The notes beneath the pieces are model-generated. The model was not told the origin of the DNA and did no database searches. It saw only the letters and a list, made by a program, of their open reading frames with translations. A program made the translations under genes and the position numbers. Below, piece after piece: positions 5,361 to 41,763 of a DNA stretch of 43,684 nucleotides (position 1 is its first letter; each line of letters opens with the position of its first letter). The DNA is from Bacillota bacterium (lineage in GTDB: Bacteria; Bacillota; Clostridia; Christensenellales; WQRI01), in assembly GCA_009786825.1 (NCBI GenBank), contig WQRI01000006.1, forward strand, positions 1-43,684, read 5' to 3'.

Positions 5361-5450
5361 GAAGCAAAACCAGCACGAAAAATCACAAAAGGCTTAAGCG
5401 AATTATCCCATAGCACAGACAAAACAGCAAACCTAGCGCTTGCAAAAAAA

Positions 5451-5521
5451 AGTGGTTAGCATTAAATTTTGCTAGCCACTTTGCTTTTTACACTTATAGT
5501 ATTTGGGGTTGTTTTTTGTTT
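5451..5521. repeat. Direct repeat copy A, containing a bidirectional terminator
   Basis: This 71-bp segment is repeated at 6958-7028 with four differences. It contains the hairpin AGTGGTTAGCA...TGCTAGCCACT. On the minus strand the stem is followed by eight T's, so it terminates the 6839-5520 gene. On the plus strand it follows the small gene at 5142. The remaining 36 bp lie between the hairpin and the stop codon at 5520-5522. Confidence 0.85.
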
Positions 5522-6874: not shown

Positions 6875-6957
6875 TTTTTTTGAACTCATTGACAAACCCA
6901 TTATCTTACATTTTTTGTCGCTTTATATCACTAATCTAAGCACTTTTAGCAATGAAA

Positions 6958-7028
6958 AGAGGCTAGCATTAGATTTTGCTAGCCTCTTTGCTTTTTACAC
7001 TTATAGTATTTGGGGTTGTTTTTTGTTT
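6958..7028. repeat. Direct repeat copy B, terminator of the cotJ operon
   Basis: This is the second copy of the 71-bp repeat at 5451-5521, 67 of 71 bases identical. The outer stem reads GAGG/CCTC here and GTGG/CCAC in copy A, so the stem is preserved by a paired change. It lies 118 bp downstream of the cotJC remnant stop and about 119 bp upstream of the AlbA_2 start. Confidence 0.85.
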
Positions 7029-7764: not shown

Positions 7765-8190
7765 TTACCTAGCCCTCCCAAAAGTGTAACCTCTGTTTAT
7801 AATTCTTTTGTTGTACGGCATATCAAGTGCTTCGAAAAGCGTACCCTGAACAAGTGCCGTTTTTAAACTGTATGTATCTGCGTTGTTTTGCATAGGGGTT
7901 GTTGCAAAACTTATTTGTAACTGATTGTTGCAAGGTATTACTGGGCGCGGATATTCGCGTGCCACATCACACCTAGCGTGAGAGTGCATTGGCATTTGTG
8001 AATGATTGCCGTGCATTTGCATCTGTGGCACCTGTTGCATTCCGCCATTCATTTGCGTTGGTGGCATAGTATGCATAGCACGCGCTCTCATACTTGCTAT
8101 TTGCTCTGGCGCAAGCCCGAAATAAGCGCAATTTATATTTCCGCAAAAGTTTAGCCTGTTTTGCATATTGCATATTGTGCAAGTAAACAT
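7765..8190 (-). CDS. cotJA: CotJA-domain protein with an N-terminal zinc-ribbon-like extension
   Basis: The 141-aa protein ends in a CotJA-type block (residues 106-131: YSLKTALVQGTLFEALDMPY). The upstream part is unusual. Cys4, Cys7, Cys16 and Cys21 could form a small zinc ribbon, and residues 41-72 are Met/His-rich (QMQMHGNHSQMPMHSH). AAGGAG lies eleven bases before the ATG. Operon order is cotJA-cotJB-cotJC remnant. A family-2 hairpin lies in the 5' region at 8226-8326. I saw no clear sigma-E promoter. Confidence 0.8.
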   Translation of the reverse strand: MFTCTICNMQNRLNFCGNINCAYFGLAPEQIASMRARAMHTMPPTQMNGGMQQVPQMQMHGNHSQMPMHSHARCDVAREYPRPVIPCNNQLQISFATTPMQNNADTYSLKTALVQGTLFEALDMPYNKRIINRGYTFGRAR

Positions 8191-8225: not shown

Positions 8226-8330
8226 ACAAAGTCATATCATAACGAATTTCTATTCCGCTTCGCTTCACAAGGAAATTCTTTTATGATATGATTTGTTAAC
8301 GGGTGCTACACCCGCTTCGCGATAATTATT
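8226..8330 (-). repeat. Family-2 hairpin element, full copy 1 (5' of cotJA)
   Basis: On the minus strand it begins TAATTATCGCGAAGCGGGTG and continues into a long stem. TCATATCATAA pairs with TTATGATATGA and GAATTTC with GAAATTC. The loop is CTTGTG-AGCGAAGCG-like. The loop and inner stem match the copy at 28823-28925, while the outer stem differs and stays paired. Confidence 0.8.
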
Positions 8331-16712: not shown

Positions 16713-16901
16713 TTTTAAGTGTAAAGTGTAAAATGTAAAGTGTAGAGTGGTTAAACTCATTATTACAATAACTTTTGAACAGTTGTAATTTGTCTATTCT
16801 CAATATTTTGCAAAAAATATTTTTTCCGCGCTAGCGGTGAAAAAACTTTACACTCTACACTTTACACTTTACACTCTACACACTCAACTTTACACTCTAC
16901 A
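16713..16901 (-). repeat. Family-1 heptamer-arm element between rpoB and rpoC
   Basis: On the minus strand it starts at the rpoB stop codon with eight or more heptamers (TGTAGAG/TGTAAAG). The core follows: TTTCACCGCTAGCGCGG, an A/T-rich stretch, CTGTTCAAAAG, and TAATGAGTTTAACCA. It ends in the complementary heptamers (CTTTACA/CTCTACA). The arms pair over more than 30 bp. ATTACAA and TTGTAAT flank the CTGTTC block as an inner 7-bp stem. Confidence 0.85.
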
Positions 16902-26642: not shown

Positions 26643-27581
26643 TTAACTTTTTAAAAGATTTTGAATAACTTCGTTTGCGGCGATTGCGCCGTCTGCGTTG
26701 GCTGTTACTATTTGCCTTAGGGGTGTTACACGGCTATCCCCCGCGGCGTAAATTGTTTTGATGTTGGTTTGTAGAGTTTTGTTTGTTTTGATGTAGCCGT
26801 TTTTGTTTAGTGATATGGTGTGCTTTACAAGGTCGGTTGATGGGTTCTGACCAATTGCTATAAAAAGTGCGTCTGTGTCTAGAGTTTGCGTATCGCCCGA
26901 CTTTTTGTTTTTTACGACTATGCCATTTAAGGCTCTATCCCTTTCAATCAACTCTACTACTTCGCTGTTCCAAATAATTTCTATGTTGTTGTTTTTGAAA
27001 AGGGCGTTTTGAAGCACTTTTTGAGCGTTCAGTCTATCTGTCCAATGTATAAGCCTTACTTTACTTGCAAACTTTGCCCCGTGCAGAGCGTCTTCTACTG
27101 CTGTGTTGCCACCGCCCACAACTGTTATAATCTTACCTTTAAAAAAAGGCGCATCGCATACGGCACAGTAAGCAACCCCCTTGCCCGTAAGCGCGCCTTC
27201 GTTCTGCAACCCCAACTTTTTTGGGCTTGCGCCAAGCGCTAAAATAATATATTTTGCGTAGTAAGTGTTTTTGGCAGTTACAACTTTGCTAGGCTTGTTT
27301 GGCGCGTCTGCCGGGTACAGCGCCGTAACATTTTCGAATACAATTTTTGCGCCCGCACTTTTTGCGTGATTAAAAAATGATGTTGCCAACTGATAGCCCT
27401 TAATACTCTCAAACCCCGGATAGTTTGCAATCTCGGCAGTTAGCGCGGTTTGACCGCCCGGCATATTGCGCTCTAACACCAAGGCATTAACACCGCCCCT
27501 AGCCAAATATATACCCGCCGTTAAGCCAGCCGGACCACCACCTATTACAATACACTCGTATACATCAACATTTTTACTCAT
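26643..27581 (-). CDS. trxB: Thioredoxin reductase
   Basis: This 312-aa FAD/NADPH enzyme reduces thioredoxin in the cytoplasm. The FAD-binding GGGPAG lies at residues 14-19. The redox-active Cys139-Ala-Val-Cys142-Asp matches the low-Mr TrxR family, where CATC is more usual. NADPH binding is by GGGNTAVE at 156-163, and the C-terminal FAD motif is GDSR at 281-284. AGGAG precedes the ATG. It lies downstream of the rplM-rpsI terminator and a decayed family-2 element. No thioredoxin gene is adjacent. Confidence 0.95.
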   Translation of the reverse strand: MSKNVDVYECIVIGGGPAGLTAGIYLARGGVNALVLERNMPGGQTALTAEIANYPGFESIKGYQLATSFFNHAKSAGAKIVFENVTALYPADAPNKPSKVVTAKNTYYAKYIILALGASPKKLGLQNEGALTGKGVAYCAVCDAPFFKGKIITVVGGGNTAVEDALHGAKFASKVRLIHWTDRLNAQKVLQNALFKNNNIEIIWNSEVVELIERDRALNGIVVKNKKSGDTQTLDTDALFIAIGQNPSTDLVKHTISLNKNGYIKTNKTLQTNIKTIYAAGDSRVTPLRQIVTANADGAIAANEVIQNLLKS

Positions 27582-27583
27582 TC

Positions 27584-27685
27584 TTTCTCCTATAGTTGAA
27601 CAAAGTCATATCATAACGAATTTGACGTTCCGCTTCGCGAATAATTCCTATTGCACGAAAAATGAAAATATAAATATTCTGCGAA
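27584..27685 (-). repeat. Family-2 element, decayed copy fused to heptamers (5' of trxB)
   Basis: The 3' half (AAATTCGTTATGATATGAC then TTTG) matches the copy at 8226-8330 almost perfectly. The 5' stem strand is missing, so the long hairpin cannot form. Upstream it joins a heptamer array at GGTTACACCTGCTTCGCAG, a hybrid of family-1 and family-2 boundary sequences. Confidence 0.65.
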
Positions 27686-27782: not shown

Positions 27783-28196
27783 TTATCTCTTTGAGAATTG
27801 AGATGCTTTTCTTGCTTTTTTAAGACCCGGCTTTTTGCGCTCTTTCTTTCTAGAGTCTCTTGTTAAAAAGCCCGCCTTTTTTAAACTTGGGCGTAAGTCT
27901 TCGTTTGCTAAAATCAGCGCACGAGAAATACCGTGCCTTATAGCACCCGCCTGACCCGTATATCCGCCGCCCCTTACGTTTACTTTAATATCAAACTGAC
28001 CTAGGGTCTGAGTAAGTTCTAGCGGCTGCCTTACAATTAACTTCAAAGTGTCTAGCCCGAAGTAGTCGTCCATCGTTCTTTTGTTAATTGTTATTGCTCC
28101 GCTTCCGCCCGGCAACAATCTAACCCTAGCAACCGCACTTTTGCGCCTGCCAGTTCCCCAAAATGCAACTTGTTTTTTTAATGCTAATTTTGTCAT
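27783..28196 (-). CDS. rpsI: Ribosomal protein S9
   Basis: The 137-aa S9 begins after a short lead with [20 protein letters not shown] and carries [17 protein letters not shown] and the basic C-terminus ending SQFSKR, which reaches the P-site tRNA. It follows rplM by 77 bp in the usual L13-S9 operon. No Shine-Dalgarno is visible before the ATG (only A/T). Confidence 0.97.
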
Positions 28197-28273: not shown

Positions 28274-28723
28274 TTACTCTTTGTCGTGCTTGTTGCGTAT
28301 TTTTAAAACTTTAGGCTTTTGTGCGATATGCTCGTGTTGCTCGCCCGAATAAATGCGTAATTTTTTAAGCATTTTTCTGCCTAACTTTGTTTTAGGTAGC
28401 ATACCCCTAACCGCTTCGTAAACAACAAACTCTGGCTTGTCTAGCATAAGATGTTTGTACTGAACGCGCTTAAGCCCGCCAACATATCCCGTGTGATAGA
28501 TATGCTCTTTTTGCTCTAACTTTTTGCCTGTTAGTGCAACCTTATCTGCGTTTATAATAATTACGTGGTCGCCACAGTCCATATTTGGTGTGTAGATAGG
28601 CTTGTGCTTGCCACGCAAAATTGAAGCCACTTGAGACGCTAGCCTACCAAGTACAATACCCTCGGCGTCTACAATGTGCCACTCTTTTTTTATATCTTCT
28701 TTTTTTGGTATAAATGTTTTCAT
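28274..28723 (-). CDS. rplM: Ribosomal protein L13
   Basis: The 149-aa L13 has the typical [38 protein letters not shown] start, then [16 protein letters not shown] and [29 protein letters not shown]. It is the first gene of the rplM-rpsI operon. The leader is about 200 nt and contains a complete family-2 hairpin. GGAG lies about 16 bases before the ATG, farther than usual. Confidence 0.97.
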
Positions 28724-28822
28724 TGCTATTTGTAACTAACTCCATTTAAAAATTTTGTGCTTTAATTGCCTAAACCAAGGGGCTAAACTTAACCTAAACA
28801 ACCAAATGCCGTACCGGACAAA

Positions 28823-28925
28823 ACATATACAACGAATTTCTGTTTCGCTTCGCTACACAAGGAAATTCTTTTGTATAAGGTTTTGTCTGCGGATTGCTAC
28901 ACCCGCTTCGCTATAAGCAGTACTA
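28823..28925 (-). repeat. Family-2 hairpin element, full copy 2 (5'-UTR of rplM)
   Basis: The element begins at the predicted transcription start. On the minus strand GACAAAAC, TATACAA and GAATTTC pair in order with GAAATTC, TTGTATA and GTTTTGTC (22 bp in three blocks). The loop is CTTGTGTAGCGAAGCG-like. The upstream box GCGAAGCGGGTGTAGCA is shared with copy 1. Confidence 0.85.
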
Positions 28926-28928
28926 TAT

Positions 28929-28957
28929 ATTTTACAAAATTTTAAACAATAAGTCAA
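28929..28957 (-). promoter_or_regulatory. rplM-rpsI promoter
   Basis: The -35 TTGACT (28952-28957), 17-bp spacer and -10 TAAAAT (28929-28934). The expected start site is near 28922. Confidence 0.8.
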
Positions 28958-33433: not shown

Positions 33434-33601
33434 AGTTTCTTTTAATGTTAAATTTTAAATGTTAAATGTTAAATTCCTACACTCAATTACAAAAAGCGTT
33501 TGAACAGTCTGCGGTTTGTATTTGCGAACAACTTGCTAATAATCTTGCCCGCGCTAGCGGGTGAAATCATTTAACATTAAAAATTTACCATTTAAAATTT
33601 A
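33434..33601 (-). repeat. Family-1 element with TTAAATG arms (ATPase-permease gap)
   Basis: The core is the same as in the rpoBC copy (TTTCACCCGCTAGCGCGGG ... CTGTTCAAA). The arms are TTAAATG/TTAAATT units instead of GTGTAAA, again complementary to each other. The first arm includes the ATPase stop codon (CAT TAA ATT), and TTAAATTTTAAATG occurs in both arms. Confidence 0.85.
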
Positions 33602-34359: not shown

Positions 34360-36441
34360 TTACTTTCTGCCGGCTCTGTCTGAGATGATTTTTTCTGAGA
34401 TGTTTTTTGGTACTTCAAAGTAGTGTGAGAATTCCATTGTGAATGTGCCTCTGCCTTGTGTGCGAGAGCGTAGGTCTGTTGAGTAGCCGAACATCTCTGA
34501 TAGCGGAACTTGTGCGTTGATTATTGATGTTCCCATATCTGTTTCTGTGCCTAGTATGTTTCCGCGCTTTGAAGACACTTGCCCCATAATGTCCCCCATA
34601 TTGTCTTCTGGCACAACAACTTCTACTTTCATTATTGGCTCTAGTAAAACAGGGTTTGCTTTTTTAAACGCCTCTTTAAACGCCATAGAACCAGCAATTT
34701 TAAACGCCATTTCCGAACTATCTACATCGTGGTAAGAGCCGTGAACAAGCGTAATTTTATAGTCTACAACCTCATAGCCCGCAAGTATACCGCTTTGCGC
34801 CGCTTCTTTTATTCCGTTGAAAACTGGCTGGATATATTCTTTTGGAATAATACCACCAACAATCTTGTCTACAAACTCTGTACCCTTACCCGGCTCGTTT
34901 GGCTCTAGTTCTATCACAACGTGACCATACTGACCCTTACCGCCCGTTTGCTTTGCGTGCTTATGCTCTTGAGATACTTTAGCCCTAACAGTTTCTCTGA
35001 AACTTACTTGCGGGTTACCTACAGTTGCCTCAACTTTAAACTCGCGCTTCATTCTGTCTACTAAAATCTCTAAGTGTAACTCACCCATACCAGCGATAAT
35101 TGTCTGACCCGTTTCTTTATCTGTGTAAGTTTTAAACGTTGGGTCTTCGCTTGCTAGTTTTATAAGCGCGTTAACCATTTTCTCTTGCATAGCCTTAGAC
35201 GATGGCTCTACCGCAACGCTTATAACTGGGTCTGGGAAATCTATGTTTTCTAGTAAGATTTGTGTCTTTTCGTCGCAAAGCGTGTCGCCTGTTATTGTGT
35301 CTTTTAAACCAACAACCGCACCAATCTCACCCGCATAAAGCCCATCTACTTTCTCGCGCGAGTTTGCGTGCATTTTGAAAACGTGCGATATGCGCTCTTT
35401 TTTAGACTTACTAGAATTATATACGTAAGAACCCGCGCTTAAAACACCCCTATAAACCCTAACAAACGTAACCGCGCCAACGAATGGGTCTGTTGCTAGT
35501 TTAAAGGCAAGGGCTGCTAGCGGCGCTGTGTCATCTGGCAGTATTGTTATAGGCTCGCGCGACTTATAGTCTTCTGCTTGTATGCCTTTTATATCTGTAG
35601 GCGCTGGTAAATAATCTATAACAGCGTCTAACATTTTTTGAACACCTTTGTTTTTGTAAGACGAGCCACATAAAACAGGCGTTACTTTCATTTCTAAAAC
35701 TGCCCCCCTAAGCGCCTTTTTAATCTCATCTACAGTTATAGGCTTTTCTTCTAAAAGTTTTTCCATAATAGCATCGTCGTGCATAGATACAAAGTCTAGA
35801 AGTTTTTCTCTATACTCTTCCGCCTGCTTTTTTAAGTTTTCTGGTATGTCTCTAACTTCAACTTCTTTGCCGATGTCGTCTTTATGATAGTAGGCTTTCA
35901 TCTCTACTAAGTCTACAACGCCCTCAAACTCGTGTTCTTGCCCGATTGGCAGTTGGATAGCAAGCGGGTTGGCTTTAAGCCTCTCGCGCATTTTATCCAT
36001 AACATTTAAAAAGTTAGCGCCCTCTCTGTCCATCTTGTTAACGTACGCAAGGCGCGGAACTTTATATTTGTTTGCTTGGCGCCATACAGTTTCCGATTGT
36101 GGCTGAACCGCACCCCTAGCACAAAAAACCGCAATAGCCCCGTCTAAAACACGTAAAGAGCGCTCTACTTCTACAGTAAAGTCTACGTGACCCGGCGTGT
36201 CTATAATATTAATTGCGTGGTCTAACCACTGAGTTGCTGTTGCCGCAGATGTGATTGTAATACCTCTCTCTTGCTCTTGCGCCATCCAGTCCATAGTAGC
36301 AGCGCCATCGTGAACCTCACCTATCTTGTGGGTTCTGCCCGTAAAGAATAAAATGCGCTCTGTAGTCGTGGTTTTACCCGCATCTATATGCGCCATTATT
36401 CCAATGTTTCTTGTTTTATCTAGTGTAAACTTTCTAGGCAT
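34360..36441 (-). CDS. fusA: Translation elongation factor G
   Basis: The 693-aa GTPase moves tRNA and mRNA through the ribosome. G1 is [10 protein letters not shown] at residues 17-26, the switch II motif is [12 protein letters not shown], and G4 is NKMD at about 135. Domain IV carries the usual [22 protein letters not shown]. Length is normal. GAGAGGT precedes the ATG. It is last in the L7Ae-rpsL-rpsG-fusA operon; tuf does not follow, as a terminator closes the operon here. Confidence 0.98.
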
Positions 36442-36499
36442 AAATGTACCTCTCTTTTTAATTTATACTTTTTTCGTGTGGTCGGCTTTTTGTAAGCCA

Positions 36500-36565
36500 C
36501 CTAAAATAACGAATGCTTCACCCGCTTTTCCGATAATTACTATAGCGCGAACTATAGCGCGAAAA
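36500..36565 (-). repeat. Family-2 element, internally deleted copy (rpsG-fusA gap)
   Basis: On the minus strand CTATAGTAATTATCG-GAAAAGCGGGTGAAGCA matches the upstream box of the full copies and is followed directly by TTCGTTAT, their distal edge. The central hairpin is missing. A tandem CTATAGTTCGCG/CTATAG duplication lies alongside. Confidence 0.55.
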
Positions 36566-37083: not shown

Positions 37084-37097
37084 ATTATATTACTCCA

Positions 37098-37260
37098 TTA
37101 TTGCAAAGTGTAAAGTGTAAAATGTAAAGTTTTTACACACATTATAACCTACACTTTTTAACAGTTTGCAATTTAGTTTTTTACGATTTTTGCAAATTGA
37201 TTTTGCTAGCGCTAGCGGTGAAACCACTTTACACTTTGCACTTTACAATTTACACTTTAA
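37098..37260 (-). repeat. Family-1 element between rpsL and rpsG
   Basis: It starts at the base after the rpsL stop. Arm 1 is five AAAGTGT-like heptamers, the core is GGTTTCACCGCTAGCGCTAGC ... AACTGTTAAAAAG, and arm 2 is the complementary CTTTACA/CTTTGCA series. This core is the most diverged of the four copies. Confidence 0.85.
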
Positions 37261-37639: not shown

Positions 37640-37827
37640 TTTTTAAGTCTTATGTGCGGCGTTATACTTCGTCAGTTTTTACATTTCGCTCAGTCACGTA
37701 CGCCAAGTACGCTCCTTCGCGAAGCCGCAAAAACGACGACCGAGCCGTAAACCGTAAGGTTTTAGCCTTTTGCGATAGCAAAAGCGTCAAAAGGCGAGGT
37801 GTCTTACTTGCACCTAAAACTTAAAAA
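37640..37827. repeat. Family-3 element, copy a (reverse orientation, expanded)
   Basis: Terminal inverted repeats are TTTTTTAAGTCTTATGTGC and, on the other strand, TTTTTAAGTTTTAGGTGC. It shares GCGTTATACTTCGTCAG and CTTCGCGAAG blocks with copies b and c. About 60 extra bases form nested stems (CCTTTTGC/GCAAAAG, AAACC/GGTTT). The outer end mirrors the A/T-rich start region of rpsL. Confidence 0.8.
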
Positions 37828-40762: not shown

Positions 40763-40779
40763 AAGTTATTTTGGTTTAA

Positions 40780-40953
40780 AGTGTAGGTTAAAATTGTAAA
40801 GTGTAGAGTGTAAAGTGTAAAGTGGTTAAACTCATTAGTTGCTTTACTTTTGAACAGTCAGAGTTTTGTGTTTTTCGCATTTTGCTTTTTAAAATATTGC
40901 CCGCGCTAGCGGGTGAAATCACTTTACACTTTACACTTTACATTTTACATTAA
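40780..40953 (-). repeat. Family-1 element between the DUF1854 and ABC exporter genes
   Basis: It begins at the base after the TGA of the DUF1854 gene. Arm 1 is TAAAATG/TAAAGTG heptamers. The core is TTTCACCCGCTAGCGCGGG, then GACTGTTCAAAAG, then CTAATGAGTTTAACCA, nearly the rpoBC core. Arm 2 is the complementary CTTTACA/CTCTACA series. Confidence 0.85.
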
Positions 40954-41565
40954 TCAAATGTACATCTCGAGCATTTTTATGCTACCCTTATCCAACTTCG
41001 TGTAGTCTGATATTTCGTATCTGTTTGCGTCTTGGTCTATTATTTTTAGTCTGTTTTTGCCTAGTTTTATTATGTTTCTGTATGTATCTGCAACCGCGAA
41101 ATCTAGTTTGCCTTTGTCTGTTGTTACTTCCCAGTAAGAAAAACCGTAGCGCTCTTTTATTGTGTTTATTTTTGTTATGATGGGCGAGAAGTATACGCGC
41201 TTAAGTTCTGCCCCCAAAAGTTGCCTAGTGGTCTCATCGAAAAGCATTATATCTTTAATAATACCCACTTCATCATCATCTTTAAAAACCGAGATGTACT
41301 CTGTTGGCGTAACAAACGGAAAAGCCCTATGTAATTTTACTACACCCTCTGGCTTGTCGCACTCGTCCTTTGCCTTATCCGCCCCCTTGTCAGACTTTTT
41401 ACTTGCCTTATCTTTAGCAAACTTTTTTTCATCTTCTTTTCGCTTTGCTTTTTGTTGTTCGCTCTCTACCCACTTGCAATATAAAAGCCCGCCTTCAGTT
41501 TTAGAAAACTGCGCATTCTCAGGCGTTAAATAATTAATCTTACTTGTTTTAAAAATACTTTCCAT
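40954..41565 (-). CDS. DUF1854 protein, ABC-exporter partner
   Basis: The 203-aa protein has a conserved C-terminal ~130 residues: LHRAFPFVTPTEYISVFKD...EVGIIKDIMLFDETTRQLL, ITKINTIKERYGFSYWEVTTDKG and ANRYEISDYTKLD. This matches my memory of DUF1854. In Proteobacteria such proteins accompany ABC transporters in cyanophycin-metabolism loci; no cyanophycin gene is here. Residues 38-72 are a Lys/Asp-rich insertion absent from the family core. AAAGGA precedes the ATG. It is soluble, so a cytoplasmic adaptor for the two exporters is the best inference. Confidence 0.8.
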   Translation of the reverse strand: MESIFKTSKINYLTPENAQFSKTEGGLLYCKWVESEQQKAKRKEDEKKFAKDKASKKSDKGADKAKDECDKPEGVVKLHRAFPFVTPTEYISVFKDDDEVGIIKDIMLFDETTRQLLGAELKRVYFSPIITKINTIKERYGFSYWEVTTDKGKLDFAVADTYRNIIKLGKNRLKIIDQDANRYEISDYTKLDKGSIKMLEMYI

Positions 41566-41636: not shown

Positions 41637-41763
41637 GATTAAAGTTCTAGGTGCAAGTTAGACAAGGAAGTCTGCGGCTTCGCGAAGGCGCGTACTAGGC
41701 GTACGCAACTGAGCGAAACGTAAAGACTGACGAAGTATAACGCAGCACATAGGGCTTTAATCA
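41637..41763. repeat. Family-3 element, copy c
   Basis: Ends GATTAAAGTTCTAGGTGC and, on the other strand, GATTAAAGCCCTATGTGC. The second end includes the GA of the TGA stop at 41761-41763. Inner arms AGTCT/AGACT pair, and CTTCGCGAAG plus GCGTAC/GTACGC hairpins lie inside. Confidence 0.8.

Follow-up and report, generated by a model that had tools for sequence, protein, structure and literature searches.

The window, the whole stretch of 43,684 nt analyzed here, carries two full copies of a hairpin repeat that we term family 2, one in the rplM-rpsI leader and one 5' of cotJA, together with decayed family-2 sequence near trxB and fusA. The gene names assigned by an earlier sequence-only reading agree with Pfam, and the relevant features are as follows:

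7765-8190, CotJA (Pfam)
8226-8326, minus strand, family-2 element 5' of cotJA (covariance model 122 bits, E 4e-25)
8226-8296, minus strand, long hairpin of the cotJA copy (folding)
8304-8320, minus strand, left box of the cotJA copy (sequence)
26643-27581, TrxB-like (Pfam)
27596-27650, minus strand, decayed family-2 copy between rpsI and trxB (BLAST and sequence)
27783-28196, S9 (Pfam)
28274-28723, L13 (Pfam)
28817-28917, minus strand, family-2 copy in the rplM leader (102.5 bits and E 9e-21 by covariance model; identity to the cotJA copy 82%)
28817-28887, minus strand, long hairpin of the rplM copy, with outer stem, AA/G internal loop, inner stem and apical loop (folding)
28895-28911, minus strand, left box GCGAAGCGGGTGTAGCA of the rplM copy, composed of the mini-hairpin GCGAAGC and GGTGTAGC (sequence; kept in most copies)
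34360-36441, EF-G (Pfam)
36499-36543, minus strand, left-end remnant ATAGTAATTATCGGAAAAGCGGGTGAAGCATTCGTTA between rpsG and fusA (model, plus the terminus with 2 mismatches at 36531; weak but plausible)

Both full copies lie where the sequence-only reading had placed them, on the minus strand and with the common elements it described: the same 17-nt box stands in each, as do the inner stem GAATTTC/GAAATTC and the CTTGTGNAGCGAAGCG loop. Its claim of compensatory outer stems is likewise borne out, the stem reading TCATATCATAA/TTATGATATGA in one copy and GACAAAAC..TATACAA/TTGTATA..GTTTTGTC in the other, with complementary arms in each. The location it gave for the rplM copy holds but the start at 28823 does not, as the stem begins at 28817 and six bases had been trimmed. 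When both strands of both copies are folded, as DNA and as RNA, against 200 dinucleotide shuffles, the folding energies fall 3.6-5.5 SD below those of the shuffles, none of which (0/200) folds as well. A promoter-like site, TTGACT-17-TAAAAT, ends at 28929, just 5' of the rplM copy (shuffles average 1.5 such sites), and the rplM start codon follows 90-100 nt downstream of the copy. The rplM copy sits in a leader and may have a local effect on rplM; by its sequence it appears to be an older, more diverged member of family 2. The cotJA copy belongs to the TCATATCATAA-stem subfamily and, along most of its length, is 91-98% identical to ~13 other copies (BLAST).

The two decayed copies proposed earlier fare differently. 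The trxB-proximal one is supported by BLAST (27600-27638, E 1.9e-7) and has a deletion of the interval between two GCGAAGCG repeats; a second copy elsewhere in the genome (L027) has lost the same interval between the element’s own GCGAAGCG repeats. At the fusA-proximal site the left end is plausible at a weaker level (model 14.9 bits, E 0.3), and the hairpin is lost.

In the bacterium’s own genome (G000; 1.70 Mb, 103 contigs, 86% complete), a BLAST search with the cotJA copy as query returns ~30 nearly complete copies and ~10 fragments, and these are confirmed by a covariance model based on 20 copies: the genome holds ~35-40 scattered copies of a ~100-nt hairpin repeat, dispersed in both orientations. 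About half of all copies belong to the TCATATCATAA-stem subfamily, whose members are for the most part 91-98% identical to each other, an identity which, as the sole guide here to age and activity, suggests recent amplification. Beyond this genome, the element has no BLAST match among 100 relatives, all outside the host’s family, and the covariance model finds nothing credible in 396 genomes of the order, none of them from that family. Two weak model matches in the latter set (L077, L078) approximate the number expected by chance and proved on reading to be unrelated sequence. A loose core pattern run against 84,980 species genomes gives nine scattered matches in unrelated taxa, again about the chance number, and the one of the nine that was read, from Eubacterium (L041), proved to be other sequence. 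Searches for the element in phages, plasmids and viral contigs gave no match. Among the genomes searched, the element is found only in that of this bacterium and is probably lineage-restricted.

Read in the sense direction (consensus ATTATCGCGAAGCGGGTGTAGCAYCCGTTAACAAATCATATCATAAAAGAATTTCCTTGTGNAGCGNAGCGGAAYAGAAATTCGTTATGATATGACTTTGT), the element has, from left to right, a mini-hairpin, the GGTGTAGC box, then a long hairpin whose asymmetric AA/G internal loop and apical part are conserved. GTAG is present in most copies, ~20 nt upstream of the long hairpin and partly within a small stem. The element’s ends, ATTATCGCG on the left and TTTGT on the right, are neither inverted repeats nor complementary, and no U-run follows the hairpin. 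Covariation was counted after aligning 28 copies by fitting to the model: both sides change in 14 of 23 pairs, and 97% of cells are paired, with 0 of 500 shuffles reaching either value and slid versions of the pairing reaching only 26-52%. As the copies were aligned to the structure and close kin among them enter the count more than once, these numbers are upper estimates; the pattern is nonetheless too strong to depend on alignment fitting or on the kinship of the copies. All eight outer-stem pairs covary, as do two of the three apical ones (TGT/ACA, TAT/ATA, TGC/GCA, TAC/GTA), and in the outer helix changes between standard pairs are two-sided in 57 cells and one-sided in none. Of the 28 copies, 27-28 retain the AA/G internal loop, an extra C persists at the hairpin foot, and G-T mismatches outnumber A-C ones by 34 to 4 in favor of the sense strand, such that wobble is nearly confined to one strand.

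Insertion shows most clearly in a copy within a spore-germination permease gene (Spore_permease, PF03845; C1:87319-87421), where the element lies antisense and in frame. It accounts for ~40 residues of the permease that are absent from nine homologues of relatives, all of which align on both sides of the insertion. The empty-site comparison covers this one copy. Gene contexts, taken from a simple codon-usage gene caller that was checked on the window, are co-directional for 11 of 32 copies (+E+), antisense for another 11 (-E-), divergent for five (-E+), convergent for four (+E-) and undetermined for one. A downstream gene starts within 150 nt in the sense direction in 14 of the 32, leaving 18 without one. 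Replication-strand bias is not apparent, with flank GC skew positive in 16 cases vs. negative in 14. In antisense contexts the element’s right end usually abuts the neighbor’s stop codon, at a median of ~1-2 nt vs. 97 nt in sense contexts (L047-L076; Mann-Whitney p 0.011, post hoc), and several copies adjoin a terminator hairpin. Insertion beside terminators was considered as a rule and not adopted: left flanks fold better than right ones on average, with p 0.058.

The sequence-only reading had offered two alternatives, a cis-regulatory RNA or a hairpin element that lands in leaders, and the second comes close to what we find, except that the element lands anywhere between genes, once inside a gene, and in either orientation. 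A leader RNA controlling rplM-rpsI, cotJA and others via the sense transcript, by r-protein autoregulation or in a riboswitch-like manner, would fit the strong covariation with its sense-strand wobble bias as well as the position of the rplM copy, with a promoter-like site immediately 5' of it and the start codon 90-100 nt downstream. The copies, however, lie mostly outside leaders and in random orientation, which is the outcome that the sequence-only reading had itself named as refuting cis-regulation; half of the contexts with same-strand neighbors are antisense, near-identical copies occupy non-leader places, and no Rfam family is matched in the window at the gathering threshold. Moreover, the genes downstream of sense copies are unrelated, encoding a sigma factor, carbonic anhydrase, HlyIII, SecY, a PLP decarboxylase, PTAC, a TyrRS-like protein, L13 and CotJA, and consistent sense placement 5' of a common gene set is not what the 11 co-directional and 11 antisense contexts show. 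Because the copies occur in both orientations, beside unrelated genes and in one case inside an open reading frame, they do not constitute a shared leader switch; these same observations speak against cis-regulation as a general function and make the leader-RNA account very improbable. Selection downstream of genes, for a role at 3' ends or in transcription termination, is an equally poor prospect; the abutted stop codons and adjoining terminator hairpins would speak for it, but the hairpin lacks a U-run, sense and antisense contexts are equal in number, and several copies precede genes or lie within one.

Mobility itself could be of the conventional MITE kind, in which a DDE transposase acts via terminal inverted repeats and leaves a target-site duplication. 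The element is indeed small, dispersed, non-coding, palindromic and intergenic, but its ends are not inverted repeats, its conserved asymmetric features point to strand-specific recognition, no convincing target-site duplication emerged over 200 boundary combinations (best post-hoc z 3.6), the boundaries being uncertain by a few bases, and no target consensus was detected; we consider a MITE unlikely. The compensated arms, in turn, could have arisen without selection, through templated quasi-palindrome correction during replication and with no function for the fold. Because the outer-stem changes are two-sided and lack one-sided intermediates, such correction may contribute to the arms, and it is compatible with mobility. 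As the full explanation it is distinctly unlikely: it would tend to erase two features that persist, the extra C at the foot and the AA/G internal loop, the apical pairs show G-T intermediates, and dispersal is left unexplained.

Taken as a whole, family 2 is probably a ~100-nt non-autonomous mobile palindromic repeat, amplified in one lineage, whose folded sense strand would be read by a protein acting in trans. That it is a mobile repeat is very likely, while the single-strand-recognition step is the weaker part and is put forward tentatively. We infer recognition of a folded single strand in trans, next to the dispersal, structure, in-gene insertion and decay seen in the copies themselves: with the box, the asymmetric internal loop and the apical mini-hairpin as its recognition features, the protein would act on the sense strand, more likely as single-stranded DNA than as RNA, and copy the element to new sites. 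Selection for the fold in active copies would keep the arms complementary while their sequence drifts, and leader copies such as that of rplM would be incidental passengers that could locally alter translation or mRNA stability. Searches of the 86% complete genome for a Y1 transposase (PF01797), the TnpB zinc ribbon and IS110 give no match. Two reverse transcriptases were considered as movers and rejected, as neither locus carries the element or a known intron RNA. One (493 aa; L109 988-2996) lies beside a 207-aa membrane protein, SLATT-like by eye, with which it probably forms a defense pair; the other (472 aa; L110 928-2346) is possibly of the diversity-generating type, judged by eye from its IPLGNVTSQL motif.

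Among known systems, the best reading of the general kind is one of the REP or Rickettsia-palindromic-element type, with the features tested matching neither a REP nor a terminal-inverted-repeat MITE. In E. coli REPs, TnpA-REP reads one strand, on which it recognizes the GTAG tag and a conserved AA-GC mismatch bulge (PMC8266576); REPs can lie inside genes too (PMC3733652). Family 2 resembles REP/REPIN elements and their RAYT (TnpA-REP) systems in its dispersed intergenic hairpins, GTAG-containing box, conserved AA/G internal loop and one-strand wobble bias, but it measures ~100 nt rather than 20-40, its box stands ~20 nt from the hairpin foot where the REP tag is unpaired at the foot, and the 86% complete genome yields no RAYT. 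Tag position, length and the missing transposase set the element apart from REPs, and the parallel would serve as a lead only. Rickettsia palindromic elements, of ~100-150 bp, are capable of in-frame insertion into protein genes (PMC10969869); compared with them by size and placement, family 2 is a palindrome of similar size with one in-frame case, in Spore_permease, its other copies being intergenic and the in-gene frequency far lower than in Rickettsia. The BOX, RUP and SPRITE elements of Streptococcus pneumoniae are small families of one genome, found clustered and inserted within each other (PMC10969869). Here too several small families share a genome and families 2 and 3 are nested, but terminal inverted repeats and target-site duplication were not found for family 2. 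Ribosomal protein leaders, such as the L13 leader of Rfam, share the place upstream of rplM-rpsI, with the difference that family 2 also occurs at unrelated genes and in antisense.

The genome carries further repeats. Family 1 measures ~160 nt, its long arms being made of GTGTAAAGTG-type repeats and its box reading CCCGCGCTAGCGG-TGAAA; it occurs in the window at 16717-16878, 33440-33599, 37097-37260 (just upstream of rpsG) and 40766-40954, and elsewhere at L079-L108, with at least 40 copies scored among 241 candidates in the own genome. Family 3 is a ~95-nt terminator-like element, GTCGGCTTCGCCGATTCCCTCGCTTGAGGCTCGGCTTTTTTGG (L117-L126, L131-L138, L145-L148), with 28 BLAST matches in the own genome, and several family-2 copies have a left flank matching its end CTAGGAAWTATCGC. 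Two family-2 copies (L075 and L076) contain family-3 sequence at an internal position equal to the GCGAAGCG-repeat interval. Families 2 and 3 share a CTAGGAATTATCG-like terminus, and families 1 and 2 a mini-hairpin and GGTGWA box. It is improbable, though conceivable, that the three families (~100 small elements) form one system of strand-specific hairpins, whose mover would be a single-strand nuclease or RNA-based mechanism not yet described and unrelated to the known Y1, IS110 and TnpB systems. The window also holds an 88-nt inverted repeat pair (37642-37729 and 41673-41760; 89% complementary, 3.9 kb apart), an 80-nt direct repeat (5442-5521 and 6949-7028; 93% identical, a hairpin followed by TTTGGGGTTGTTTTTTG) and, near its start, a 259-nt direct repeat (1-259 and 1646-1904; 98% identical).

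Copies of a mobile hairpin can thus present both covariation and a leader position, which is a warning against calling such a pattern a riboswitch. The family-2 copies also form a compact natural record in which the arms change in complementary pairs and three small motifs stay fixed, a set that, given a complete genome, should make the recognition enzyme testable.
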